This document shows, one piece after another, positions 1,054-16,202 of a DNA stretch of 33,070 nt. Source of the stretch: Peterkaempfera griseoplana (GTDB taxonomy: Bacteria > Actinomycetota > Actinomycetes > Streptomycetales > Streptomycetaceae); assembly GCF_001418575.1 (NCBI RefSeq), contig NZ_LIQR01000183.1:1-33070 (forward strand). The letters run 5' to 3'. The notes under the pieces were generated by a model that saw only the letters and a list, made by a program, of their open reading frames with translations, was not told where the DNA came from and did no database searches. Each line of letters begins with the position of its first letter. Positions within the stretch are counted from its first letter, which is position 1. The position numbers and the translations under genes were made by a program.

Positions 1054-1713
1054 TCACGCCCGCAGATAGGCGAGCACCGCGAGCACCCGGCGATGGGTCT
1101 CGTCCGCGGGCGGCAGGTCCAGCTTGGCGAGGATGCTGCTGATGTGCTTGCCCACGGCGGCTTCGGAGACCACCAGTTCACGGGCTATCGCCCCGTTGGA
1201 CCTGCCCTCCGCGATCAGGGCCAGCACCTCCCGCTCCCGGGGGGTGAGCCGCTCCAGCGGATCGCGGCGGCGGCGCAGCAGCTGCCGTACGACCTCCGGA
1301 TCGACGACCGTGCCGCCCGCCGCGACCTCGCAGAGCGCGTCCACGAACGCCTGCACCTGGCCGACCCGGTCCTTGAGCAGATAGCCGACGCCGGTGCCGT
1401 CCCCGGAGTCCAGCAGCTCCGAGGCGTAGGCCCGCTGCACGTACTGGCTGAGGACCAGGACCGGCAGGGTGGGCCGCTCCGCGCGCAGCCGCACCGCGGC
1501 CCGCAGCCCCTCGTCCTGGAACCCCGGGGGCATGCGGACGTCCGTCACCACGACGTCGGGTGAGTGCCGCCCGACCGCGGCGACCAGCGCCGTAGCGTCG
1601 CCGACCGCCGCGACCACCTCGTGCCCGCAGCGGCCGAGCAGACCGACGAGGCCCTCCCGCAGCAGCACGCTGTCCTCGGCCAGTACTACGCGGAGCGATC
1701 GGTCAACTCGCAA
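1054..1713 (-). CDS. NarL/LuxR-family two-component response regulator
   Basis: 219 residues. The N-terminal receiver has the acidic pair ED (13-14), the phospho-acceptor Asp58 in VVVTDVRMP and the conserved Lys in YLLKDRV. The C-terminal LuxR-type helix-turn-helix starts at LTPREREVLALIAEG and includes GKHISSILAKL. The family is phosphorylated by DesK/NarX-type kinases and binds inverted repeats as a dimer. The TTG start at 1711-1713 was chosen because it is preceded at 5 nt by GGAG and no ATG/GTG lies upstream before the conserved beta-1 strand. The gene overlaps the 3' end of the kinase gene by 28 bp, so the two are co-translated. Likely targets are its own operon and the divergent ABC transporter. 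Confidence 0.9.
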   Translation of the reverse strand: MRVDRSLRVVLAEDSVLLREGLVGLLGRCGHEVVAAVGDATALVAAVGRHSPDVVVTDVRMPPGFQDEGLRAAVRLRAERPTLPVLVLSQYVQRAYASELLDSGDGTGVGYLLKDRVGQVQAFVDALCEVAAGGTVVDPEVVRQLLRRRRDPLERLTPREREVLALIAEGRSNGAIARELVVSEAAVGKHISSILAKLDLPPADETHRRVLAVLAYLRA

Positions 1714-2975
1714 GGAAACTCCACACTCAACAGAGTCGGTCCACCCGGCGGACTGGACAGGGAAACTCTGCCATCCAGAACCGACACCCGGTCGGCCAGC
1801 CCGGTCAGGCCGCTGCCGGTCCCGGCCTCCGCGCCTCCCCGCCCGTCGTCGGACACCTGGAGGAACAGCCGGCCGCCCCGGTGTCCGCCGCTCACCTCCG
1901 CACGGGCCGCCCCGCTGTGCCTGGCGACGTTGGCGAGTGCCTCGCAGACCACGAAGTACGCCGCGGCCTCGACCGCCTGGGGCAGCCGGCCCGGCAGCTC
2001 CAGGGCGACGTCCACGGGCACCGCGGAGCGGTCCGCGACATCGGCGACCGCGGCCTCGAGGCCGTAGTCCGCGAGCACCCGGGGATGGATGCCGTGGATC
2101 AGCTCGCGCAGCTCCGCCAGCGCCCTGCCCGCCTCCTCCTGTGCCACGGCGAGCCGGTCGGCCAGCGGTCCGGGCGGCGCGTCCAGCCGGGCCAGACCCA
2201 GCGTCATCGTCAGCGCCACCAGCCGCTGCTGCGCCCCGTCGTGCAGATCGCGCTCGATGCGCCGCCGCTCCGCCTCGAAGGCGTCCACGAGGCGGACGCG
2301 GGAGCGGGTCAGTTCGACGACCTTCGCGCCCAGGTCGCCGTCGCGCGAGGCGATCAGCAGACGCGTCAGTCCGGCCCGTGCACCGGCTGCGACCCCCAGG
2401 GCGTAGGCACCCAGGCCCATCAGGACGATTCCGAGAACGGCGACCGCGAACGCCGCCGGCCAGCCCCCGACCGTCCACTGCTTGAGCACCTTCACCTCCC
2501 GGCCGTCGCCGACGGTGGCCAGCAGCAGCGGGGTCGCGACCATGGAGAGCGGGACGAGCAGGGCGAGCGTGACGGCGAGGGCGTCCACCGGCCACAGCAG
2601 TGCGGCGAACAGCAGGGCGTACCCGAGCTCCCGCCAGGTCGCCCGCTCCCTCAGCCGGGTGGCCAGCCAGACCCGCAGGCCCCCGGAGGCCGGCACCAGG
2701 TGCTGGTCGGGTACCGGGTCCAGGTCGACCAGACGCAGCCGCCGCCGCTCCAGCCAGGCCACCGGGACACCGCAGAGGGCGGTGAGGAGCAGCAGCGGCA
2801 GCCCCACCAGGGTCACCGCGAGCACGCTGCCGGCCGCCGCCGCGGTCACCGTCGCCACCAGGGTGACCAGCCCGGCCACCGCACCGGTGAGCAGGTAGCA
2901 GGCCGAACGCCACGGCCACCACGACAGCAGGAAACCGGGCCGGGACATGGCCTGCCACACATTCCGGGGACGCAT
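1686..2975 (-). CDS. Sensor histidine kinase, HisKA_3 (DesK/NarX) type
   Basis: 429 residues. The N-terminal half (about 20-210) has paired hydrophobic segments (two hairpins of membrane helices) and resembles the 'sensor' domain common in actinobacterial HisKA_3 kinases. A linker helix then leads to the dimerisation/phosphoacceptor motif ERRRIERDLHDGAQQRL, with His245. The catalytic ATPase domain has the N-box CEALANVARHSGA and the G-box DDGRGG...GSGLTGLADR. There is no large extracytoplasmic loop, so the signal is probably sensed in or at the membrane. The ATG at 2973-2975 starts MRPRNVWQ; a second ATG (MSRPGFLL) nine codons downstream is a possible alternative. The gene overlaps the downstream regulator and diverges from the ABC transporter, an arrangement usual for envelope-stress or peptide-resistance modules. 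Confidence 0.9.
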   Translation of the reverse strand: MRPRNVWQAMSRPGFLLSWWPWRSACYLLTGAVAGLVTLVATVTAAAAGSVLAVTLVGLPLLLLTALCGVPVAWLERRRLRLVDLDPVPDQHLVPASGGLRVWLATRLRERATWRELGYALLFAALLWPVDALAVTLALLVPLSMVATPLLLATVGDGREVKVLKQWTVGGWPAAFAVAVLGIVLMGLGAYALGVAAGARAGLTRLLIASRDGDLGAKVVELTRSRVRLVDAFEAERRRIERDLHDGAQQRLVALTMTLGLARLDAPPGPLADRLAVAQEEAGRALAELRELIHGIHPRVLADYGLEAAVADVADRSAVPVDVALELPGRLPQAVEAAAYFVVCEALANVARHSGAARAEVSGGHRGGRLFLQVSDDGRGGAEAGTGSGLTGLADRVSVLDGRVSLSSPPGGPTLLSVEFPCELTDRSA

Positions 2976-3031
2976 GCGGCCACCGTAGAAGCCCCGTCCC
3001 GGCCGGTGCCATCGGTCCAGGGTGAGGAGAA

Positions 3032-3053
3032 GGGGTAGGGCCTGCCCTACCCC
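3032..3053. promoter_or_regulatory. Perfect palindrome in the divergent promoter region (candidate operator)
   Basis: GGGGTAGGGC and GCCCTACCCC are exact inverted copies separated by two bases. The site lies 57 bp upstream of the kinase start and 142 bp upstream of the ABC ATPase start, in the only non-coding stretch between the two operons. LuxR-type regulators bind inverted repeats of this general size, so it is a reasonable operator for the regulator at 1054-1713. That assignment is inference. Confidence 0.5.
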
Positions 3054-3194
3054 GGGTCTCGGTCCTGCCGCACTGCGCCGAGGCGGCCCCGCGCGGTTGT
3101 GTGGAGCCACCGCGGGAGGGTCGGCGACGGCGTCTCCCCGGGACCCCCTCCGCCCGGAACATGCGGAGGGCCGACACCCGACCAGGGGGGACAG

Positions 3195-3947
3195 ATGGAC
3201 GACTACGCGATCCGGCTGCGTTCGGTCAGCAGGCGGTACGGCTCGGGAAGCAGCGCCGTGACGGCGCTGGACCAGGTCTCTCTCGCCTTCCGCAGGGGGA
3301 CGTTCACCGCCGTCATGGGGCCCTCCGGCTCCGGCAAGTCGACCCTGCTGCACTGTGCCGCGGGACTGGACCGGCCCACCTCGGGGTCGGTCGACATCGG
3401 CGGCACCGAGCTGACGGCACTGAACGAGCGGCAGCTGACCCTGCTGCGGCGCCGGCGGATCGGGTTCGTCTTCCAGGCCTTCAACCTGCTGCCGTCCCTG
3501 ACCGCGGAACAGAATGTGGCACTGCCGCTGCGGCTGGCGGGCCGCCGGCCCTCCGCGGCCCAGGTCCGTGAGGTGCTCGGGCAGGTGGGGCTGGGCGAGC
3601 GGGCGCGGCACCGGCCGTCGGAGCTCTCCGGCGGCCAGCAGCAGCGCGTCGCCCTGGCCCGCGCCCTGATCACCCGCCCCGAGGTGCTGTTCGGCGACGA
3701 GCCGACCGGCGCCCTCGACTCCCGGACCGGTCACGGTGTGCTGGCCCTGCTGCGCGGCATGGCCGACGGCGACGGCCGGACGGTGGTCATGGTCACCCAC
3801 GATCCGGTGGCCGCCTCCTGGGCCGACCGCGTGGTGTTCCTGGTCGACGGACAGGTCGGTGGTGAGCTGACCGGTGCCGGTGCCGACCGTATCGCCGCCC
3901 ACCTGACCGGGCTGGAGCCGGTGGGACCGGGGGCCGTCGCGTGCTGA
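3195..3947 (+). CDS. ABC transporter ATP-binding protein, MacB/LolD-like
   Basis: 250 residues. Motifs in order: Walker A GPSGSGKS (42-49), Q-loop [12 protein letters not shown], signature [15 protein letters not shown], Walker [13 protein letters not shown] and the H-loop His in VMVTHD. The insert pattern and EPTGALD sequence place it in the MacB/LolD/FtsE subfamily, whose partners are FtsX-like permeases that do mechanical work on substrates in or outside the membrane. The ATG at 3195 follows a strong purine-rich site (GGGGGGA). The gene overlaps the permease gene by 7 bp. Transcription probably starts in the divergent region shared with the kinase operon. Confidence 0.95.
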
Positions 3948-6397
3948 CCGTCGCCCTGGCAACCCTGCGCACCCGCTGGACCGTCTTCGCCGGCAGCTTT
4001 GTCGCGCTCTCGCTGGGTGTCGCCCTGCTCACCGCGATGGGTCTGGCCCTCGCCTCCACCGGGGACGCGCCGGAGCGGCAGCCCCAGCGGTTCGCCGCCG
4101 CACCCGTCGTGGTCAGGGGTGCCGACACCCTGCGGGTGCCGACCCCGGCGGGGGTCCGCGTGCAGCGGCTCGTGCACCCCCGTGCGGTGCCCGCGCGGAC
4201 CTTCGCCGCGCTGCGGCGGCTCGGCACCGTCGTCGAGGACCGGTCGTTCGCCGTCCGGGTGCCGGGCGGGCCCGGCGGCCTGGTGGGCCACCCCTGGTCC
4301 ACCGCCGCGTTCGCCCCGTACCGGCTCTCCTCGGGACGGGCGCCCCGCGCGTCCGACGAGGTCGTCGCCACCGGTGACTGGACGGGACCCGGACGGCGGA
4401 TACGGACCGACCGCGGCACCGTGCGGGTGGTCGGCACCGTGGCCGCACGCGGCTTCGAGAACGCGCTCTTCTACACCGACGAACGCGCCGCCCGGCTGTC
4501 ACCGGTCAGCGTCCAGCTGGTCGTGGACGCCGACGCGGCCGCGGTGCGCACCGCGGTGCGCGGCAGCGACGGCGTCCAGGTCCTCACCGGCCGGGCGCGC
4601 AGCGACGCCGACGCCGACCCCGGCCGGGACGGCGAGGCCCTCACCGCGATGAACGCCATGTTCGGCACGGCCGGAGGGATCTCCGCCTTCGTCTCGGTGT
4701 TCGTGGTGGCGTCCACCTTCGCCTTCGCGGTCGCCCAGCGCCGCCGGGAGTTCGGGCTGCTGCGTGTCGCGGGGGCGACCCCCGGGCAGATCCGCCGGAC
4801 GGTCCTCATCGAGGCCCTCGTCGTCGGCGTACTCGCCTCGGTCGCCGGCTGCGCGGCCGGCAGGTACGGTGCGCCGCAGCTCGCCGCCCGGGCGGTCCAC
4901 GGCAGCCTCGCGCCGCGCTGGTTCACCGTCGGCGACCACATCTGGCCGTACCACCTGGCCTTCTGGACCGGACTGCTGGTCGCCCTGTGCGGCGCGGCCG
5001 CCTCCCGGCGGGCGGGCCGTACGGGCCCCGCCCAGGCGCTGGGTGAGGCGTCCACCGACACCGGGACGACGGCCCGGGGCCGCCGGGCGGCCGGTCTGGC
5101 CCTGCTGCTGACCGCCGCCGTGACCCTGGGCTGGGCCCTGGCCACCGACCCCGGCGACCTGCTCCACCGCAAGTCCTATGTGACCCGGCCGATGCTGCTG
5201 ATCAGCGCGGTCGCCGTGCTGGCCCCCACCGTCGTGCGCCCGCTCACCCGGCTGCTCGGCCGGCTCCCCGCCCTGCTGCCCGGCGCCGCCGGCCTGCTGG
5301 TCCGGGAGACCGCCGCCGCCTCGGTCCGCCGCACCGCCGCGGTCGCGGCACCCGTCCTGGTCACCGTCGCCCTCACCGGCTCGCTGCTGGGTGCGACCGC
5401 GACCCTCGACCGGGCGAGGGCGGCCGAGGCGCTCCGGCAGACAGCCGCGGACTTCGTCGTCACCCCCGCGGCCGGCGCGGGCTTCGACGCGGCGACGCTG
5501 CGGAGGCTGCACCGGGTGCCGGGCACCGTGGTGTGCCCGGTCTCCACCGGCACCGTCCACGTCCTCGAGGACGGCGTCGCGCTCATCGCCTCCGAGGCCC
5601 ACGCCGCAGCCCCCGGCCCCCTCGCGGCCACCTCCCGGCTGCCGCTCACCGCGGGACGGACCACCGACCTCGACGACGACTCCGTCATCGTCAACGAGGA
5701 GTGGCAGCGGCACACCGTCGGGCAGCGCGTGGACGTGTGGCTCGGCGACGGCTCCAGGAGGACGCTGCGGATCGCCGCCGTGATGGCCACCGGCACCGGG
5801 GACAACGGCGTCTATGTCACCCCACGCAACGCACCGGGCGCGGCCGTCGAGCGGGTGGATGTCGCCGTCTCCCCCGGGGCCGACCGGGCCTCCGTGGCCT
5901 CCGGGCTGCGGGAGGCGGTGCCCCCCTCGGGGGGACGGGTCCGCACCGGGGAGGAGTGGGTGGCGGCGCGTCACCCGGCGAACGACGGGACGACCCGGCT
6001 GGGCTTTCTGCTGGTCCTCGGCCTCGCCCTGCTCTACACCGGCATCTCGCTGGCCAACACCATGGTGATGGCCACCGCCGACCGGGTGCGCGAACTGGCC
6101 GTGCTCCGCCTGACCGGAGCCACCACGGCGCAGGTGCTGCGGCTGGTGGGCGCGGAGGCGCTGCTGGTGGTCGCCGTCGGCGGGGTGCTCGGCCTCCTGG
6201 TGGCCGTGCTGGATCTGGCGGGCATCTCGGGCGCCCTGGCCCTGCTGTCCGCGGGGAGCGCGATGGTGGTCCCGTGGGCGGCCGTCGGCGCGGCCCTGGG
6301 CGCCTGCGCGGTCCTCGCCGTCTGCGCGTCCGTCGTCCCCGCCGCGTTCGCCCTGCGCCGGGGGGCCGCGCAGCCGGCAGGCGTACGGCGGCGCTGA
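3941..6397 (+). CDS. ABC transporter permease with two FtsX domains
   Basis: 818 residues, the size of the large actinobacterial 'duplicated' FtsX permeases. An N-terminal membrane helix (about 11-35) is followed by a roughly 200-residue extracytoplasmic domain, then a first FtsX block (from about 243: FVVASTFAFAV then RRREFGLLRVAGATPGQIRR). Central helices, a second extracytoplasmic domain and a second FtsX block (from about 686: ALLYTGISLANTMVMA then RELAVLRLTGATTAQVLR) follow. The repeated [LV]LR[VL][AT]GAT motif marks the two coupling helices that contact the ATPases. The GTG start at 3941 overlaps the ATPase stop. Adjacent two-component genes suggest export of, or resistance to, an envelope-active compound; the substrate is not readable from sequence. 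Confidence 0.92.
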   Translation: MLTVALATLRTRWTVFAGSFVALSLGVALLTAMGLALASTGDAPERQPQRFAAAPVVVRGADTLRVPTPAGVRVQRLVHPRAVPARTFAALRRLGTVVEDRSFAVRVPGGPGGLVGHPWSTAAFAPYRLSSGRAPRASDEVVATGDWTGPGRRIRTDRGTVRVVGTVAARGFENALFYTDERAARLSPVSVQLVVDADAAAVRTAVRGSDGVQVLTGRARSDADADPGRDGEALTAMNAMFGTAGGISAFVSVFVVASTFAFAVAQRRREFGLLRVAGATPGQIRRTVLIEALVVGVLASVAGCAAGRYGAPQLAARAVHGSLAPRWFTVGDHIWPYHLAFWTGLLVALCGAAASRRAGRTGPAQALGEASTDTGTTARGRRAAGLALLLTAAVTLGWALATDPGDLLHRKSYVTRPMLLISAVAVLAPTVVRPLTRLLGRLPALLPGAAGLLVRETAAASVRRTAAVAAPVLVTVALTGSLLGATATLDRARAAEALRQTAADFVVTPAAGAGFDAATLRRLHRVPGTVVCPVSTGTVHVLEDGVALIASEAHAAAPGPLAATSRLPLTAGRTTDLDDDSVIVNEEWQRHTVGQRVDVWLGDGSRRTLRIAAVMATGTGDNGVYVTPRNAPGAAVERVDVAVSPGADRASVASGLREAVPPSGGRVRTGEEWVAARHPANDGTTRLGFLLVLGLALLYTGISLANTMVMATADRVRELAVLRLTGATTAQVLRLVGAEALLVVAVGGVLGLLVAVLDLAGISGALALLSAGSAMVVPWAAVGAALGACAVLAVCASVVPAAFALRRGAAQPAGVRRR

Positions 6398-8158: not shown

Positions 8159-8656
8159 TCAGGGACGGTACTGGCAGACCGTCACTCCGGTCCGCGCTCC
8201 GCAGCCGATCTTGGTGAACCGGCTCTGGATCATGTTCCAGTAGTGGCCCCACTGCGTCTTGTAGCCGGCGCTGTTGGGGTCGTGGTCGGGATCGGCGTCG
8301 TACCTGGCCTTCTCGGCGGCCCACTGCGCGGTGGCAGCGGCCGGCCCGACGGTCGACATGTTCTCGGCGCCGTTGAACGACGGCGAGTGTTTCAGCGAAC
8401 CGGGTCCGTTCGGCGTGGAGTCCGGGTTGTCAGCCCAGGCCTGGGCTTCGGCGGCGACGCTCGCGTCCCACGTCAGGGGCGGTGCACCGGCCTTCTCACG
8501 GATGGCGTTGGTCTCGTTGACGATGGTCTGCTGGTCGCCGGGGCTGATGGAGGCGACGGCCGCAGAGGCGCCCGTCGCCAGCACCGTGCTCCCGGCCAAC
8601 AGTCCCGCCGCTATGACGGCCCCTGCTTGGTGGCGTATCCGGCTGGCCTTCTTCAT
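8159..8656 (-). CDS. Secreted CAP-domain (SCP/PR-1-like) protein
   Basis: 165 residues. A typical signal peptide runs from MKKASRIRHQ through a hydrophobic core (about 11-28) to cleavage near ASA (about 31-33). The rest is one CAP domain: NETNAIREKAG at the start, HSPSFNGAENM containing the conserved His and Glu of the CAP cavity, and GHYWNMIQSRFTKIGCG near the end. Bacterial CAP proteins are small secreted proteins; some bind lipids or metals or have proteolytic activity, but most are uncharacterised. The ATG at 8654-8656 follows AGGGGG at about 6 nt. Two Cys near the C-terminus (IGCGA and TVCQY) probably form a disulfide. Confidence 0.9.
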   Translation of the reverse strand: MKKASRIRHQAGAVIAAGLLAGSTVLATGASAAVASISPGDQQTIVNETNAIREKAGAPPLTWDASVAAEAQAWADNPDSTPNGPGSLKHSPSFNGAENMSTVGPAAATAQWAAEKARYDADPDHDPNSAGYKTQWGHYWNMIQSRFTKIGCGARTGVTVCQYRP

Positions 8657-9109
8657 GGCGACCCCCTGGTCGCGGAGAGAGTGGCAGATACCGCCCGCGG
8701 GCCTCACTCGTCACGGAGCCGGGCCGAGTGGCCTGCTCCCGTTTGGTGGCCCGGAGGCGACCCCCGACGGAGTGGCTTGGAGTGGCTGGGTCCGGCCGCC
8801 GTACGGCGACCCCCTGCCCTCACCACCAGCCTAGGTCGGGGGTGTCCACCCGTCGACCGGGGAGGCTCCGGGCGACGTCAACGGCTCGGACAGCAAGGCC
8901 AGTTCACCGTCCGGTGGCTTGCCGCCCCTGCCCCCGGGCCAGGACGGCGGACACCGGAACCCGGTGCCGGACCCGGCCCCCGGCGGCCGGCAGCTGCGCA
9001 GCACGAGCCGCCGCTCCGGGCCTGCGGACCCCTGCGGTGGGGATCGGGCAGGCACGGGCGACGTCCTCCGGGCGGAGTCGGCCCACTCGCGTTACCCTGC
9101 GTGTTTTCC
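8657..9109. other. Intergenic region upstream of the CAP gene, with GAGTGGC copies
   Basis: 453 bp between the kinase stop and the CAP start, both minus strand. The heptamer GAGTGGC occurs four times in the same orientation (8679-8685, 8726-8732, 8770-8776, 8780-8786), the last two exactly 10 bp apart. I see no coding region and no strong terminator after the kinase, only a short 6-bp stem at 8952-8966. Confidence 0.5.
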
Positions 9110-11335
9110 TCATGAAGTGGGGCGGCGGCTTCGAGGCCGCTTCCATCGGCTGTTTCCGCGGACCGCGTCAGCCGACGCACCGGGTGCCGCCGCCCCGTTG
9201 GCGACGAGCTCTTCGCGGTCAACACCAAGGGCGTCTGCTTCACGGGGCGCCGGGAGGGTGAGGACGAACACCGATCCGCGGCCGGGCTCGCTGGTGGCGG
9301 CGACCGAACCGCCGTGCGCCTCGACCAGTTTCCGGACGATGGACAGGCCCAGACCGCTGCCGCCGGTCTGCCGGTTGCGGGACTTCTCGGCCCGCCAGAA
9401 GCGGTCGAAGACCCGCTGCAGATCGTCGGGCGCGATACCCGACCCGGTGTCGGCCACCTCGATCACCGCTCTGTCCTCCGCACGGTGGGCACGCAGGGTG
9501 ACGGTCCCGCCGGGCGGGGTGTGCCGGACCGCGTTGGACACCAGGTTGCCGATCGCCTGCCGCAGCCGCACCGGGTCGGCGTCCACCGCCGGCTGCCGCT
9601 CGGCCGCGGTCAGCAGGGTGACTCCCGCCGCGTCCGCGTTGCCGCGGTGCGCGGTGGCGACCTGCTCCACCAGGTCGGCGACCTCCACCTGCTCGATGTG
9701 CAGCCTCAGCTCGCCCGCGTCGGCCGCGGACAGGTCGCGCAGGTCGTCGATGACATGCTGGAGCAGCACCGCCTCGTCGAGCAGCGAACCCACCAGGTCC
9801 CGGTCGGGGACGACCAGGCCGTCCTCGGCGGCCTCCAGCCAGCCGCGGATGTTCGCCAGCGGGGAGCGCAACTCGTGGGCCACGTCACTGACCATCGCCT
9901 TGCGCAGTTCCTCCGACTGCTCCCGCTGCTCCGACATGGTGTTGAAGGCGGCAGCCACGCCGCCGATCTCGTCGCCCGCCCGCACCTTCACCCGGGCGGT
10001 GAGATCGCCGTCGGTCATCCGCCGGGCCGCCTGGGCCAGGGCCCGCAGCGGGCGGACCATCCGGGTGCCGACGAGCACCGTGACGGCCACGGTGAGCAGC
10101 AGCACCAGGCCGGTGACCTCCACGATCCTGGCCCGGTTACCGGGCGAGAGGTCCAGGAAGGTGGTGGGCGCCCCACCGGGGCTGCTCACGAAGAGCAGAG
10201 CCGGCGGCGCTACGTAGGGGGCGAGCTGCTCGCGGCGGGCGGTCTCGACGCAGGAGCCCACGGCTGCGGTCTGCTGTGCACCGGGCGCGGTTGCGGGCTG
10301 GTCGGACGTCCCGCTGCGGGCGGCGTCCTGCCAGTCCCAGCTCAAGTCGGGGTTCAGGCGCACAGGTGGCACATGACGCCGGGCGAGGCAGGTGTCGACC
10401 AGCCCGTCGAGCTGGGCGAGGGCCCGGGCCTCGGTGGGAGTCGGAGCGTCGAGAGCGGTGGACGGGCAGTCGGTGGGCAGGTACGCGACGGCGGCCGGCA
10501 GCCGGAGGACGGAGCGGCCGGACCGGGTCTCGACGACCGGGACGCTCAGGTGCAGCCTGTCGCGGTAGCACCCGGCGATCCGCAGGGCGACTGCGTGCAG
10601 TCTGGAGCGCTCCGGCGCGGTCAGCCGGAAGGGGCCGACGGCACGGGAGTCGATGGTGCTCGGCGCGGCGGGGTACGGCCCCCCGCTGGGAAGCAGACAG
10701 CGGGTGTGGGGCGGGCAGCCGGTCGCGCCGGGCCCCACGGGGGCCGGGCTGGATGCGGCGCCGGGCCCCACGGGGGCCGGGCTGGATGCGGCGCCGGGCC
10801 CCACGGGGGCCGGGCTGGATGCGGCGCCGGGCCCCACGGCCGGTGTACCTCCCGACTCCACGGTCTGCCCGGCGGACCCCGCCGGCACGGTGGCGGAGAC
10901 GGCCGGGTCCCCGGCGACCAGCGTGCCGTCCACGGCGAGCGGATCGACGGTCGCGGTCGCCTCGGTGGGCAGGTCGGGTCCGGAACGTTCCGGTGCCGGA
11001 CCGTTCTCCGGGGTGCCGTACCGGAAACCGCCGGAGTCCAGCAGGACGACGCGCTTCTCGTCGGTGACGGTGACCCGGTGGCCGCTTCGGCGGGCGAGAT
11101 CGCGGACGGTCCCGGCCGCGCCCGCCCAGTCGTGGTGGGTGGCGGCGTAGCCGAGGAGGGCGTCGTAGATCTGTGCGTCGTCGGCGAGCGCCTGGCCCCG
11201 CTCGTGCTGGATGCCCACCGCGGTGATGCGCACGGTCAGCCAGGCGGTCGCCGTGATGGAGCAGGCCGAGACGACGGCGGCCAGCGCCATGAGCTTGACC
11301 AGCAGGCTGCGGCGCAGCGGGACGTCACCGCGCAC
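9110..11335 (-). CDS. Sensor histidine kinase (HAMP, HisKA, HATPase) with Cys-rich extracytoplasmic domain
   Basis: 741 residues. The first membrane helix is at about 11-35 and the second at about 404-424, enclosing a large outside domain of about 365 residues. A HAMP linker follows (MVRPLRALAQAARRMTDGDL), then HisKA with His487 in DVAHELRSPLANIRG and an ATPase domain with N-box (GNLVSNAVRHTPPGG), G1 (DTGSGI), F-box (FDRFWRAEKSR) and G2 (GGSGLGLSIV). The outside domain has six Cys (207, 213, 256, 290, 316, 362) and a tandem 11-residue Pro/Ala/Gly repeat at about 167-204. Residues about 240-365 resemble the divergently encoded lipoprotein, with matching Cys order. The GTG start overlaps the regulator stop by 11 bp, so kinase and regulator are co-translated. 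The signal is unknown; the paired cysteines make redox state or a disulfide-stabilised ligand domain plausible. Confidence 0.93.
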   Translation of the reverse strand: MRGDVPLRRSLLVKLMALAAVVSACSITATAWLTVRITAVGIQHERGQALADDAQIYDALLGYAATHHDWAGAAGTVRDLARRSGHRVTVTDEKRVVLLDSGGFRYGTPENGPAPERSGPDLPTEATATVDPLAVDGTLVAGDPAVSATVPAGSAGQTVESGGTPAVGPGAASSPAPVGPGAASSPAPVGPGAASSPAPVGPGATGCPPHTRCLLPSGGPYPAAPSTIDSRAVGPFRLTAPERSRLHAVALRIAGCYRDRLHLSVPVVETRSGRSVLRLPAAVAYLPTDCPSTALDAPTPTEARALAQLDGLVDTCLARRHVPPVRLNPDLSWDWQDAARSGTSDQPATAPGAQQTAAVGSCVETARREQLAPYVAPPALLFVSSPGGAPTTFLDLSPGNRARIVEVTGLVLLLTVAVTVLVGTRMVRPLRALAQAARRMTDGDLTARVKVRAGDEIGGVAAAFNTMSEQREQSEELRKAMVSDVAHELRSPLANIRGWLEAAEDGLVVPDRDLVGSLLDEAVLLQHVIDDLRDLSAADAGELRLHIEQVEVADLVEQVATAHRGNADAAGVTLLTAAERQPAVDADPVRLRQAIGNLVSNAVRHTPPGGTVTLRAHRAEDRAVIEVADTGSGIAPDDLQRVFDRFWRAEKSRNRQTGGSGLGLSIVRKLVEAHGGSVAATSEPGRGSVFVLTLPAPREADALGVDREELVANGAAAPGASADAVRGNSRWKRPRSRRPTS
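10725..10839 (-). repeat. 33-bp in-frame tandem repeat (3.5 copies) in the kinase sensor domain
   Basis: Three identical 33-bp units (10725-10757, 10758-10790, 10791-10823) and a 16-bp partial fourth unit. Each encodes 11 residues of the type PVGPGAASSPA, a flexible Pro/Ala/Gly linker outside the membrane. The absence of any difference between copies points to recent slippage or unequal recombination. Confidence 0.95.
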
Positions 11336-12092
11336 GGTGTGGGCCTGGCTCCGCGGCAGGCGCCCGGGGCGTGGGAGGTTCCGCGGCCAGCTTGTAGCCG
11401 ACGCCGTAGACCGTCACCAGCCGGACCGGGCGCTGCGGGCGCGGCTCGATCTTGCGCCGCAGGTTCATCACATGGACGTCGACCGTGCGGGAGGTGAAGT
11501 ACCGGTCGATGCCGTGCTGCCGCTCGATGATCTGGGCGCGGGTGAAGACCCGCCCCGGCTCGGCCGCCAGCAGGCTCAGCAGGTCGAACTCACCGGGGGT
11601 GCACTCGATCCGGCGCCCCTCCACCGTCACCTCGTGCCGCACCGGGTCGACCGTCAGGGCACCCACCCGGAGCACCGGGTCGGGCGGCGCGGCGGCCGCG
11701 ACGCCGGCGGACGCGGCGGCACCGCTTCGCCGCAGCAGCGTACGGACCCGGGCCATCAGCTCACGCGGGCTGTAGGGCTTGGTCATGTAGTCGTCGGCGC
11801 CCAGGTCGAGGGCGAGCAGCAGATCGTCCTCGGCGGAGCGGGCGGTGAGCACCAGCAGCGGCAGCGCGGCCGTCCCGGTCTCCGCACGGAGCACCCGGCA
11901 GACGTCCAGGCCGTCCACCTTCGGCATCATCACGTCGAGCACCATCAGGTCCGGCGGGCGGCGCCTGGCCTCCTCCAGCGCGGCACGGCCGTCGTGCACG
12001 ACGACCACCCGGTGGCCCTCGTGCTCGAGATAGCGGCGGACCAGTTCCGCCTGCTTGGGGTCGTCCTCCGCGACCAGGACGTGTGCGCACAT
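11325..12092 (-). CDS. OmpR/PhoB-family two-component response regulator
   Basis: 255 residues. The receiver has the acidic pocket EDD (9-11), phospho-acceptor Asp53 in LMVLDVMMP, a switch Thr in LLVLTARS and Lys in YMTKPYSP. An Ala-rich linker leads to a winged-helix DNA-binding domain (about 140-240) containing TPGEFDLLSLLAAEPGRVFT and SRTVDVHVMNLRRKIE, with VYGVGYKL at the end. Such regulators bind direct repeats of about 11-bp period; one lies just upstream (12174-12194). The ATG at 12090-12092 was chosen because the receiver begins at residue 4. It is the first gene of the kinase operon and diverges from the lipoprotein/ABC operon. Confidence 0.95.
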   Translation of the reverse strand: MCAHVLVAEDDPKQAELVRRYLEHEGHRVVVVHDGRAALEEARRRPPDLMVLDVMMPKVDGLDVCRVLRAETGTAALPLLVLTARSAEDDLLLALDLGADDYMTKPYSPRELMARVRTLLRRSGAAASAGVAAAAPPDPVLRVGALTVDPVRHEVTVEGRRIECTPGEFDLLSLLAAEPGRVFTRAQIIERQHGIDRYFTSRTVDVHVMNLRRKIEPRPQRPVRLVTVYGVGYKLAAEPPTPRAPAAEPGPHRAR

Positions 12093-12173
12093 GGCGTCGA
12101 GTCTACGAAGCCGGTCATGCCCCGGCCGTCCGTTGTGACGCGGTCCACTGGCATCACCACGGGAGTCGAACTG

Positions 12174-12209
12174 CTTCCTGACAACTTCCTGACAGTCCCT
12201 GCCTAGCGT
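12174..12209 (+). promoter_or_regulatory. Direct repeat of 11-bp period with downstream -10-like element (candidate OmpR-type box)
   Basis: CTTCCTGACA occurs twice in exact form at 12174-12183 and 12185-12194, an 11-bp repeat period that fits two regulator subunits on one face of the helix. TAGCGT at 12204-12209 could be a -10 element; the matching -35 position would then fall inside the repeat, as at class II activated promoters. Transcription from it would start very close to the lipoprotein ATG at 12218. The operator role is inferred from family knowledge and position. Confidence 0.6.
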
Positions 12210-12217
12210 CCTGGCGC

Positions 12218-12928
12218 ATGACGCACCACATCCTCCGACCGGGCGGCACCAGTACCGCGGCCGGGGCCCGGGCCAGGGCGCTGCACCTGGCCGCCCCCGC
12301 GGTCCTCTGCATGCTCGCCCTCCCCCTCGTGTCCGGCTGCGGTAAGAGCGAGACACGGGCGACGCCCAGCGTCGCCTCGCTGCCCACCTCGCAGACCACC
12401 TCGCAGACGACCTCGGATGCGGCCGGCACGTCCGGCACCCCGAGTGACCCCGCCAAGACCCCGTCGTCCCCGGACGCGGGACCGGCGGACGGCGACACCT
12501 CCCGGCGTCCCCAGGAGCGGCTGGATGACACCCCCGAGGAGCGGGCAGCCCTGATCCACGCCTGGGACCAGTGCCTGGTGGACCACGGTGCCCACTGGAC
12601 CACCACGCGGCCCGGAGTGGCGGGCGCACCCGCGACCGTCGCCGACCCCATACCGCCCGCCGCATCCTCCGCGTGCAAGAACAAGCTCCCCCTGATGCCG
12701 CCCGAACTGGATCCCGCGCTCAACCCGCACTACCGCGACGACATGCTCGCCAATATCAAGTGCCTGCGCGCCCACGGCGTCATGGTGCACCTGACCTCGG
12801 ACACCAGTGTCAACGCGAACGGCCTGAGCTGGACCTACGACAGCAGCGACACCCCGCTCCCGCCCAACCAGGGCCAGATCGAGGACAAGTGCCAGATGGA
12901 AGCCTTCGGCGGCGGAAAGGGACAGTAG
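12218..12928 (+). CDS. Lipoprotein with a four-cysteine domain
   Basis: 236 residues. A lipoprotein signal (hydrophobic run 24-39) ends in the lipobox LVSGC with lipidated Cys41, so the protein is anchored to the outer face of the membrane. A Ser/Thr/Pro-rich spacer (42-105) leads to a domain with Cys119, Cys153, Cys182 and Cys225. This domain resembles the outside domain of the divergent sensor kinase: the first two Cys are 34 residues apart in both, CL.. follows the third Cys in both, and LSW appears between the third and fourth. It is the first gene of the adaptor/ABC operon. The ligand is unknown; co-sensing, titration of the signal or delivery to the transporter would all fit. Confidence 0.85.
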   Translation: MTHHILRPGGTSTAAGARARALHLAAPAVLCMLALPLVSGCGKSETRATPSVASLPTSQTTSQTTSDAAGTSGTPSDPAKTPSSPDAGPADGDTSRRPQERLDDTPEERAALIHAWDQCLVDHGAHWTTTRPGVAGAPATVADPIPPAASSACKNKLPLMPPELDPALNPHYRDDMLANIKCLRAHGVMVHLTSDTSVNANGLSWTYDSSDTPLPPNQGQIEDKCQMEAFGGGKGQ

Positions 12929-12931
12929 CCC

Positions 12932-14185
12932 GTGTCCGACAGCACCAGCAGGCACCGGAGCGGCAAGCGCCGGGGCGGCGAGGCCGTGGGCGGCCCGGTC
13001 GTCGACGGTGAGGCCCTCGCGATCGGCACCGCCGGTGTGACGGGCGCCCTTGCCCCGGGAGCCGCTGAATTCCGGACCGGCGCCCGTCGCGGCCGCAGGC
13101 TCGCGGCGCTGGTCGTGGCGCTCGTCGCCGTCGGCGGCATCACCGCCGGCGCCGTCGCCTTCAAACAGCACGCCCATCACCCCGCCGGCGTCCCCACCAG
13201 CGCTGCCAAGGTCGGTGTCGCCACGGTCACCAGGACCGACCTGTCCGACAGCCGCGCGGTGCAGGGCACCCTCGGCTACGGCACGCCGACCCAGGTCACC
13301 GGGCGCGGTAGCGGGGTCCTCACCGGCCTGGCCGCCATCGACACGACGGTCACCCGCGGTCACCCGCTCTACCGGAGCAACGACCAGCCGGTCATGGTCT
13401 TCTACGGCCGCACCCCCCTCTTCCGCACCCTGAAGTCCCCGACCGCCAAGAACCCGCCGATGCGCGGCTCGGACATCTCCGTGGTCGTGGAGAACCTCGT
13501 GGCCCTCGGCTACGACATCGGCTACCAGCCCGCCGACGACGACGGCCGGGGCGCCACGTACACCGCCTCCCTCGCGGCCGCGGTCAAGCGCTGGCAGGGC
13601 AACACCGGTATGACACCCACCGGCACCCTCGGCATCGACCAGATCGTCGTGCTGCCGGGCGCGGTACGGGTCAGCTCGGTCCAGGCGCAGCTGGGCGACC
13701 CGGTGGCCAAGCCCCTGCTGTCCGTCACGGCCACCGGCAAGAGGGTCACCGTGCCGGTCGAGGCGGGCGACACGCAGGGCATCACGGTCGGCGCCAAGGT
13801 GACGATCACCCTGCCAGACGCCCGGACCGTACCCGGCAAGATCACCTCGGTCGGCCGGAGCGTGCAGAGCGGCGGCGCCGGCCAGGAGGCGCCGGGCGGA
13901 CAGGACGCGCCCCCGACCCTCAATGTGTCCATCGCCCCGCTGCATCCCGCGGACGTGGCGAAGCTCGACTCGGCGCCGGTCCAGGTGCTGTTCACCACCA
14001 GCACCCGCAAGGGCGTGCTGGCGGTGCCGGTGACCGCCCTGGTCGCCCTCCGCCAGGGCGGCTACGCGCTCCAGCGCACCGACGGGACGCTGGTCGCCGT
14101 GACCACCGGGCTGTTCGCCAACGGCCAGGTCGAGGTGAGTGGTGCCGGGGTGACCGCGGGTCTGCGCGTGGAGACCGCCTCATGA
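12932..14185 (+). CDS. Membrane-fusion (HlyD/MacA-like) adaptor with peptidoglycan-binding-like segment
   Basis: 417 residues. A charged cytoplasmic N-terminus (1-55) is followed by one membrane helix (about 57-77), so most of the protein is outside. Residues 95-160 form a beta-rich segment with the adaptor-type GTLGYG...GSGVLTGL pattern. About 181-240 resembles a PG_binding_1 module ([30 protein letters not shown]). C-terminal beta-barrel segments follow ([32 protein letters not shown]). In Gram-positive bacteria such adaptors work with MacB-like ABC permeases. The GTG at 12932 begins 3 bp after the lipoprotein stop, preceded by a GGAAAGGGA ribosome site, and the gene overlaps the ATPase gene by 4 bp. 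Confidence 0.88.
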
Positions 14186-14979
14186 CCGGCTTCGCCGTCC
14201 GCCCCGAGGGGCGGTCCGGGCAGGCCCCGACCGGGCCGACGACGTCCGACCCGGTGTCCGCCGGACCGTCGTCGGTCCGGCCCTCGGGGCGGGTGTCGTC
14301 CGGGCCGGTGTTGCGCGTACGTGAGGCCACCAAGTCGTACCCGGGCGGGGTCGTCGCGCTCGCCCAGGTGTCGCTCACCATCGACGAGGGCGAACTCCTC
14401 GCGATCCTCGGACCGTCCGGCTCCGGCAAGTCCACCCTGCTGAACATCATGGGCACCCTCGACCTGCCCACGACCGGCACCGTGGAGGTCGCCGGCCAGG
14501 ACGTGGCGGGCCTGTCCGACCGGCGTCTGTCGGTGCTGCGCGGACGCTGGCTCGGCTTCGTGTTCCAGCACTTCCACCTCACCGACGGGCTGAGCGCCGC
14601 GGAGAACGTCGCCACCGGCCTGCTCTACGCGGGCGTGCCGCGCCGCCGCCGGCTACCGATGGCCCGCGAGGCGCTCGGCCGGGTCGGCATGGGCCACCGG
14701 GTCGGCCACCTGCCGCACCAGCTCTCCGGAGGCGAACGGCAGCGTGTCGCCATCGCCCGCGCCCTGGTCAACTCCCCCGCCCTGGTGCTGGCGGACGAAC
14801 CGACCGGCGCACTGGACAGCGTCAACGGGCAGGCCGTGCTCGATCTGCTCACCCAGCTGAACGAGGAGGGCACCACCATCGCGGTCATCACCCACGACCG
14901 GGACATCGCGGCCCGGCTGCCCCGTCAGGTGGAGCTGCGGGACGGACGCATCGTCAGGGACACAGAGGTGTCCCGATGA
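14182..14979 (+). CDS. ABC transporter ATP-binding protein, MacB/LolD-like
   Basis: 265 residues. Motifs: Walker A GPSGSGKS (77-84), Q-loop [12 protein letters not shown], signature [15 protein letters not shown], Walker [14 protein letters not shown] and H-loop AVITHDRD. The first 43 residues are a Pro/Ser/Gly-rich extension not usual in the family; the conserved domain begins at [14 protein letters not shown]. The ATG overlaps the adaptor stop (ATGA). If translation really starts here the extension is cytoplasmic and disordered; no better internal ribosome site is obvious. Just after the start codon the mRNA contains a 7-bp inverted repeat (14199-14214). Confidence 0.93.
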
Positions 14980-16202
14980 CTGCCGCCACGCCCGCGCACC
15001 CGCACGCCCGCCGGGCCGTACGGCTCTCCCCCGGCGACATCCTGCGCCTCGGCCTGATCGGGGTCCGGGTCCGCAAGCTGCGGGCCGCGCTCTCTGCGCT
15101 GGGCATCTCCATCGGTATCGCCACCATGATCGTGGTCACCGGAATCCCGGCCTCCAGCAAGCAGGCGCTGCTGACCCAGCTCACGGCGCTGGGCACCAAC
15201 ATGCTCCAGGCACAGGCGCAGCCCAACCAGAACCCGCCGGTGCTTCTCCCGCCGAGCGCCGACGCGATGGCCGCCAGGATCGGCCCGGTCACCGACACCG
15301 GTGCGGTCGCCAACACCCACCGGACCGTGCAGCGCAACGACCACTCCGATCCGAGCGACAGTGTCGGCATCAGCGTGCTGGCCGTCCGCGACGGCCTGCT
15401 GTCCGCGGTCAACGGCTCGGTGCACACCGGGCGCTTCCTCACCCCGGCCACCGACCGCTTCCCGACCGTCGTGCTCGGCCACCAGGCCGCCTCCTGGCTG
15501 GGTTTCCGGCAGTTGGTGCCCGGTCAGCCGGCGCCGCAGGTATACATCGACAACCGGTGGTTCACCGTGATCGGCATCCTCAATCCCATGCCGCTCACCC
15601 CCGACCTGGAGCAGTCGGTGATGGTCGGCTGGTCGGCGGCCACCACGTACCTGCACTTCGACGGGCACCCGACGGTGGTCTACCTGAAGGCTTCGGAGAA
15701 TGCTCTGGAGGATGTGCGGGCGGTGCTGCCTGCCACGCTCTACCCGCAGTTGCCGGGCCTGATCCAGGTGAGCCGTCCGTCGGACGCGCTGGCCGCCAAG
15801 AGGGCCACGGAACAGACCTTCTCCGGTCTGTTCATCGGCCTGGCCGGTGTGGCGCTGCTGGTCGGCGGAATCGGCGTCGCCAATACGATGATCATCTCTG
15901 TGCTGGAGCGCCGCCGTGAGATCGGCCTGCGCCGGGCCCTGGGCGCCAACCGGGGCCAGATCCGGGGCCAGTTCCTCACCGAGGCGGTGGTCCTGTCCAC
16001 CCTCGGCGGGGTCGCCGGCGCCGTGATCGGCTCCCTCGGCGTGCTCGGGTACGCGACCTTCCAGGGCTGGCCGCCCGTCATCCCGCCCGCCTCGGTGGCC
16101 GAGGGGATCGGCGGCGCCCTCCTGGTCGGAGTCGTCGCAGGCGTCTACCCGTCGATCCGCGCGGCGCGGCTCACCCCGACCGAAGCGCTGGCCTCCACAT
16201 AG
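14976..16202 (+). CDS. ABC transporter permease, MacB/FtsX-like
   Basis: 408 residues with the standard MacB layout: one N-terminal membrane helix (about 36-57, [19 protein letters not shown]), a periplasmic-type core domain on the outside (about 60-275), then the FtsX domain with three helices ([50 protein letters not shown]) and the coupling motif [19 protein letters not shown]. The ATG overlaps the ATPase stop (ATGA). With the adaptor and ATPase it should form a tripartite efflux or extrusion machine for an envelope-active molecule. The gene ends exactly where the 89-bp att-like repeat begins. Confidence 0.93.

Follow-up and report, generated by a model that had tools for sequence, protein, structure and literature searches.

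Several two-component systems are known in which a lipoprotein accompanies the sensor kinase. In the sigma-E system of Streptomyces, the lipoprotein CseA is encoded with the two-component system CseC-CseB, its loss raises the output, and an interaction with the sensor domain of CseC has been proposed, no domain common to CseA and CseC being described in the accessible parts of the two reports (PMC6767563, PMC9739842). AfsQ3 is a further accessory lipoprotein of a kinase system, shown or proposed as such (PMC9739842), and in the Pseudomonadota QseG binds and activates the kinase QseE, as seen by cryo-electron microscopy (PMC12691602); QseG is a Gram-negative outer-membrane lipoprotein, and the abstract of this report does not mention a domain common to QseG and QseE. 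In the present study, we analyzed a stretch of 33,070 nucleotides from Peterkaempfera griseoplana, a soil bacterium related to Streptomyces (contig NZ_LIQR01000183.1 of assembly GCF_001418575.1, genome of 8.24 Mb), hereafter called the window (coordinates 1-based on the forward strand), in which a sensor histidine kinase and a nearby lipoprotein are likely to carry homologous cysteine-repeat domains.

Like CseA, the lipoprotein of the window has a two-component system encoded alongside it. The gene for CseA, however, lies in one operon with sigE-cseBC, whereas the window lipoprotein heads a transporter operon and appears to have its repeat domain in common with the kinase. Extracytoplasmic cysteines are also important in CutS, a kinase that is controlled by two conserved residues of this type, Cys85 and Cys103, and CutRS regulates htrA3/htrB (PMC12802291). 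The cysteines of CutS are approximately 18 residues apart and no lipoprotein is mentioned there, whereas the window kinase has four, Cys256, Cys290, Cys316, and Cys362 (spacing 34/26/46), in inserted tandem repeats of its ectodomain, and in the number and spacing of these cysteines it does not fit the CutS type. The predicted PAS fold of the window kinase is like that of YycG/WalK, CusS, and CitA, which are kinases with extracytoplasmic PAS, PDC/sCache-like domains, and the cysteine-repeat insert distinguishes the window kinase from them. Regarding the output, two-component control of MacAB-TolC by BaeSR is described (PMC4498774, abstract). The window similarly has a MacB/FtsX-type permease and an ATPase putatively under a two-component system, and differs from MacAB-TolC in that the protein in the adaptor position has a PG_binding_1 domain and a tandem-repeat lipoprotein is added; moreover, the kinase is not a BaeS equivalog (238 bits on NCBIfam NF012163 against a curated cut-off of 500). 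To our knowledge, no TolC is to be expected in these bacteria. The view of the initial annotation that no system of this kind had been described was too strong given CseA/CseC, AfsQ3, QseG/QseE, and CutS; with regard to the sharing of a domain, we found in the open-access literature neither a published kinase that shares a domain with its lipoprotein nor a paper on the repeat module. The two proteins and their domains are as follows.

9110..11335, minus strand: sensor histidine kinase of 741 amino acids, with a first transmembrane segment (TM1), an extracytoplasmic PAS-type domain with an inserted four-Cys tandem-repeat domain, a second transmembrane segment (TM2), HAMP, HisKA, and HATPase_c (Pfam).
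10211..10654, minus strand: inserted domain of the kinase, residues 228-375, two alpha-beta-beta-alpha two-Cys repeats, C256/C290 and C316/C362 (helices and strands predicted by AlphaFold2, AF2).
12218..12928, plus strand: lipoprotein of 236 amino acids, with lipobox Cys41, a low-complexity spacer, and a tandem two-Cys repeat domain.
12500..12925, plus strand: lipoprotein domain, residues 95-236, tandem alpha-beta-beta-alpha repeats predicted by AF2, C119/C153 and C182/C225.

The kinase belongs to the HAMP/HisKA class of two-component kinases, its HAMP, HisKA, and HATPase_c domains passing the Pfam cut-offs and an OmpR-type regulator adjoining it. The outer part of the ectodomain model (m82978bce7ce6) aligned with the extracytoplasmic PAS domain 3cwf (Z 9.0, root-mean-square deviation 2.7, 89 aligned) and with the PAS domains 5is1 (Z 7.3), 8biy (6.2), and 5ku5 (6.1), and the ectodomain is modeled as an extracytoplasmic PAS fold between TM1 and TM2. 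The four-Cys domain, an insert of approximately 150 residues, interrupts this fold between the strand at 95-97 and the last PAS strand at 346-351 (model numbering, to which 33 is added for kinase numbering), ahead of which it is placed. Further cysteines of the kinase, not listed in the initial annotation, are Cys25 in TM1 and Cys207 and Cys213 (CPPHTRC) in the linker. Directly before the insert, this linker contains GPGAASSPAPV repeats encoded by a perfect 33-bp tandem repeat of 3.5 copies (10725-10839), and its length is highly variable among relatives.

The positions given for the cysteines of both proteins in the initial annotation were correct, and their conservation was confirmed. The four ectodomain cysteines of the kinase were retained in 48/48 kinases compared first and in 59/59 of a later set, while those of the lipoprotein that follow the lipobox, Cys119, Cys153, Cys182, and Cys225, were the sole invariant columns in 42 lipoproteins. 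The identical first spacing of 34 residues, to which attention had been drawn, is true of the window pair and is in part a coincidence, the distance ranging from 31 to 89 residues among the kinases and from 22 to 43 among the lipoproteins.

Each domain consists of two copies of a smaller unit. Repeat 1 matched repeat 2 in the kinases with a probability of 93% (P 3e-7, hhalign) and in the lipoproteins with 98.9% (P 2.5e-17). The window lipoprotein has two helix-C(L/M)xxxG-...-C repeats, as in the tandem CMRxxGV lipoprotein family, and in distant lipoproteins a unit of the kind AQCMREHGVDMPDPD...A...C occurs twice. Among the compared loci holding relatives of the window genes, which are labeled with L-numbers, the kinases of L131 (2253-3968) and L132 (5217-7160) have one two-Cys repeat only (C3/C4), preceded by an additional short Cys pair, and they branch outside all other four-Cys kinases in a tree rooted on insert-less kinases with a long outgroup branch. 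Since these kinases keep a single repeat, the two-Cys repeat is the real unit, and independent duplication in the kinase and the lipoprotein is therefore possible. They also provide a natural hint at which cysteines pair. In the kinases of L189, L190, L192, L194, and L197, an inserted Pro/Glu-rich stretch of approximately 100 residues separates C3 from C4 in the repeat domain.

A profile-profile comparison of the two families gave a moderate match. With 48 kinases and 42 lipoproteins, the probability was 56-61% (P 8e-5 to 1.1e-4), C1, C2, and C3 being in register in the best match; a second pair of alignments (A3 vs. A4) gave 54% (P 1.3e-4), and 59 vs. 43 sequences gave 47% (P 1.9e-4, hhalign) with an alignment spanning all four cysteines. 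The runner-up alignment was in a shifted register. Kinase repeat 1 matched lipoprotein repeat 2 with a probability of 65% (P 6e-5), and repeats matched better within each protein than across the two. As controls, 450 column shuffles, two thirds of which had the Cys columns fixed, reached at most 22.2 against a real score of 32.4, and 64 decoy slices from real proteins at most 17.2 against 28.6. Other searches gave little or nothing: the best pairwise BLASTP match between kinase and lipoprotein was 22 bits in the wrong register, nine-member profiles gave a probability of 7%, also in the wrong register, and hmmsearch with a single-repeat lipoprotein model recovered the kinase C1 and C3 sites with low scores only, at most 7.3 bits compared with 5.3 in shuffles. 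A PDB sequence search revealed no relative, and neither model matched in Foldseek at E <= 0.001. The kinase of L196 was considered as a bridge between the families and rejected, as it showed no significant BLAST match to the lipoproteins.

The predicted structures pointed in the same direction. The kinase insert was modeled by AF2 with a pLDDT mostly above 90 as helix 207-228 (containing C223), strands 234-236 and 242-244, C257, helices 260-263 and 267-286 (C283), strands 292-294 and 300-302, and helix 320-341 (C329), while the lipoprotein domain (pLDDT 89.5, pTM 0.76) was modeled as helix 12-28 (C25), two short strands, helix 53-58 with C59 just after it, helix 78-91 (C88), strands 96-100 and 109-113, and helix 124-141 (C131), both in model numbering. 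The order alpha-beta-beta-alpha, twice, is common to both, with cysteines at equivalent positions. The second repeats of the two proteins also aligned to one segment of Rad50, residues approximately 738-815. For the lipoprotein, residues 71-142 aligned with 1f2u_B (Z 4.1), or 67-142 in a slightly wider span, and for the kinase, residues 267-341 aligned with 1us8_B (Z 7.3); the Cys offsets from the aligned ends were similar, the Z-scores being middling and Rad50 serving as a common ruler only. Because the element order and the Cys positions agree, on top of a moderate profile match above the controls, we consider the kinase insert and the lipoprotein domain likely to be homologous and hold this with considerable confidence. 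The four-Cys domain that the initial annotation assigned to both proteins is thus supported by conserved cysteines, a profile match above controls, and the same predicted topology; it is not one unique domain, but a tandem two-Cys repeat in each protein.

On the repeat domain of the lipoprotein, none of the Pfam and NCBIfam families reached its cut-off, and the present study would characterize a Cys-repeat lipoprotein family for which we found no existing model in either database. A CHCH/Cx9C-like identity of some members was dismissed since the Pfam matches were weak (best 5e-4) and judged to be due to chance. Another two-Cys-repeat lipoprotein, not close to that of the window, is encoded in the same genome near an ABC ATPase and an FtsX-type permease (L160, 5384-6082, contig 266).

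The genes and sites through which the kinase may act are listed below.

11325..12092, minus strand: OmpR/PhoB-type response regulator, Response_reg and Trans_reg_C (Pfam), the stop of which overlaps the kinase start.
12176..12194, plus strand: tandem response-regulator-type box TCCTGACA-N3-TCCTGACA, with an 11-bp period, 23 nucleotides upstream of the lipoprotein ATG.
12204..12209, plus strand: putative -10-like TAGCGT, 9 nucleotides past the box and 8 nucleotides before the lipoprotein ATG.
12932..14185, plus strand: protein in the MacA adaptor position, with a PG_binding_1 domain (Pfam PF01471), in the conserved order lipoprotein-MacA-ABC-FtsX.
14182..14979, plus strand: ABC ATPase (Pfam PF00005).
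14976..16202, plus strand: MacB/FtsX-type permease (Pfam FtsX and MacB_PCD).

The kinase and regulator form one minus-strand operon and the lipoprotein, PG_binding_1 protein, ATPase, and permease a divergent one, neighboring genes overlapping or almost abutting inside both. The true start of the regulator is placed at the ATG at 12092 because the resulting MCAHVLVAEDD is conserved among relatives (MCAH or VCAH). The permease, with MacB_PCD and FtsX, and the ATPase agree with a MacAB-type transporter (Pfam); no adaptor model of Pfam or NCBIfam matched the protein at 12932..14185, the putative MacA role of which rests on its position and PG_binding_1 domain. OmpR/PhoB-type regulators usually bind 11-bp direct repeats. 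The box at 12176-12194 is the sole perfect copy in the genome, its chance expectation is 0.12 at 3 mismatches (window shuffles), and it is conserved across families near the lipoprotein genes of L003, L013, L014, L054, L058, L129, L130, L131, and L132. The tandem box is conserved, is unique as a perfect copy, and immediately precedes the lipoprotein gene, from which we judge it very probable that the lipoprotein-MacA-ABC-FtsX operon is under the control of the regulator; the idea of the initial annotation that the sensor feeds a MacA/MacB-like machine is supported by this box at the lipoprotein promoter. The spacing of the box, TAGCGT, and ATG would fit a PhoB-activated, leaderless-promoter-like layout, and a sigma-70-type promoter scan found nothing.

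Near kinases without a lipoprotein, the box was found at genes for a sortase and a small anchored protein (L057, L065, L066, L074, and L083), YkuD proteins (L061 and L079), and secreted hydrolases (L055 and L187). In the first five loci, which are from Streptomyces and have a similar box, the sortase and anchored surface protein genes are located just downstream of the kinase; in L061 (6964-7707) and L079 (6620-7522), the box lies ahead of a gene whose product is a lipoprotein with a YkuD (L,D-transpeptidase) domain, beside a four-Cys kinase and with no transporter. The kinase and box seem to have been reused for other envelope genes, and the targets being sortase, YkuD, hydrolase, and lipoprotein genes, the output throughout appears to be cell-envelope or secreted proteins.

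Streptomyces sp. HPF1205 (L003) also has the six-gene set, as do genomes from this family and from others (L012-L018, L050, L054, L058, L059, L073, L131, and L153). The divergent arrangement noted in the initial annotation holds for the window and is not essential, because L012, L015-L018, and other loci have the kinase and lipoprotein genes on one strand. The kinase ectodomain was present in 51/119 genomes of the order and 26/297 of the class. The lipoprotein family is more widespread, usually precedes a MacA/ABC/FtsX operon, and in distant loci adjoins kinases without that ectodomain. By counts made by hand and not corrected for phylogeny, a four-Cys-type kinase was in the same cluster for 20/23 derived RPxxRLD-type lipoproteins (two of the 20, in L131 and L132, in the single-repeat form) and for 0/20 canonical CMRxxGV lipoproteins, any kinase adjoining the latter being of a short-ectodomain, mostly Cys-free type. 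Co-occurrence of the four-Cys kinase and the lipoprotein is seen for the derived lipoproteins and not for the canonical ones, and many kinases lack a neighboring lipoprotein. The P. griseoplana genome also encodes a canonical lipoprotein-MacA-ABC-FtsX set (L159) by a different kinase, which is similar to the window kinase in the catalytic part only. In L129, L130, and L132, the lipoprotein, regulator, and kinase genes are together and tblastn at 1e-3 found no MacA, ABC, or FtsX within 16 kb; because the pair stays together there, we see in these loci the strongest genomic indication of a role for the lipoprotein with the kinase, in addition to that with the transporter.

Taken together, we propose, with confidence evenly divided for and against, a dedicated two-component system in which the PAS-type sensor of the kinase holds an insert from the repeat family to which the accessory lipoprotein of the controlled operon belongs, with feedback by a shared partner. 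The phosphorylated regulator would bind the tandem box and most likely activate the divergent operon, activation being likely. The lipoprotein and the kinase insert would probably engage each other or one common partner, the latter being a secreted or envelope molecule that the transporter handles, and lipoprotein production would alter the kinase signal, in the simplest form as negative feedback through competition or binding. The probably related domains suggest a common recognition target of the sensor and lipoprotein or binding between the two, and a common partner with feedback is plausible. A more far-reaching scenario, advanced tentatively and at less than even confidence, is that the kinase captured the recognition domain of an accessory lipoprotein as a PAS insert, that both bind the same molecule or pair domain to domain with the lipoprotein as a feedback decoy, and that daughter kinases carried the insert and box to sortase, L,D-transpeptidase, and secreted hydrolase targets.

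Several observations weigh against this proposal. The profile probability is just approximately 50-60%, and the profile evidence does not by itself decide the question. Block shuffles that retained the local CLxxxG blocks gave a mean of 17.0, a 99th percentile of 25.1, and a maximum of 29.1, exceeding the real score of 28.6 once; because these scores approach the real one, much of the profile signal comes from the local helix-CLxxxG block, and the profile comparison suggested by the initial annotation stands above column shuffles and decoys and not entirely above this control. Convergence, in which small, disulfide-bonded helical domains without common ancestry would each use a helix-CLxxxG cap, would account for these values and for the closer resemblance of repeats within than across proteins; we consider it the least probable explanation, as the best alignment keeps the cysteines in register over the tandem layout, the alpha-beta-beta-alpha order is the same twice over, decoys and column shuffles score far lower, and the two genes are linked. 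Only slightly less improbable is thiol-disulfide sensing of secretion stress as proposed for CutS, in which the kinase would be activated when its disulfides fail to form, with the lipoprotein serving as an exported substrate or as another reporter of this state. The conserved extracytoplasmic cysteines, the constitutive activity of CutS C85S/C103S (PMC12802291), and the envelope or secreted nature of the box targets agree with it; however, the cysteines are equally invariant in the non-kinase lipoprotein family, at fixed places of the repeat fold, and we noticed neither HtrA nor Dsb-type genes at these loci. Because the same cysteines are invariant in the lipoproteins, structural disulfides are likelier than redox sensing, and the most likely pairing of the cysteines is within each repeat.

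The same invariance has another side, since with only the cysteines invariant no conserved ligand pocket is visible in the lipoproteins. Most Streptomyces kinases of this family also lack a neighboring lipoprotein, and pairwise distances revealed no pair-specific co-evolution: the insert-lipoprotein correlation (r 0.875) was no higher than that of the kinase core with the lipoprotein (0.876) or FtsX with the lipoprotein (0.918), and the partial correlation with the kinase core, 0.385 (permutation p 0.0005), drops to 0.165 with FtsX controlled. The shared ligand, decoy, or hetero-association put forward in the initial annotation thus gained no backing from co-evolution, from these kinases, or from the wider lipoprotein family, which is found by kinases without the domain. 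These data, canonical lipoproteins with MacA-ABC-FtsX adjoining such kinases, and the same box before sortase, YkuD, or hydrolase genes agree with a homologous domain without a signaling partnership, in which a generic disulfide-stapled protein-binding module would serve the lipoprotein in its work with the transporter and the kinase in dimerization or in binding a ligand of its own, the sole link being that the regulator controls the operon. We regard this as rather unlikely, less so than convergence or redox sensing, because the lipoprotein and four-Cys kinase are still neighbors without detected transporter genes in L129, L130, and L132, and lipoprotein adjacency is basal in the kinase tree.

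Elsewhere in the window, a secreted CAP/SCP-domain protein (8159-8707, minus strand) and a serine beta-lactamase-fold protein (PF00144; 6516-8324, minus strand) are encoded beside the kinase operon, the former being absent from the related loci surveyed. A second ABC ATPase lies at 3099-6397 together with a large permease of the FtsX type that contains two FtsX stretches, with a LuxR-type response regulator at 1054-3177 (minus strand).

If the proposed reading is true, this locus would represent a concrete, testable case of a bacterial sensor sharing a recognition domain with the accessory protein of the very transporter that it regulates, and the binding partner of the lipoprotein would offer a direct route to the signal of an uncharacterized kinase family that is common in Streptomyces.

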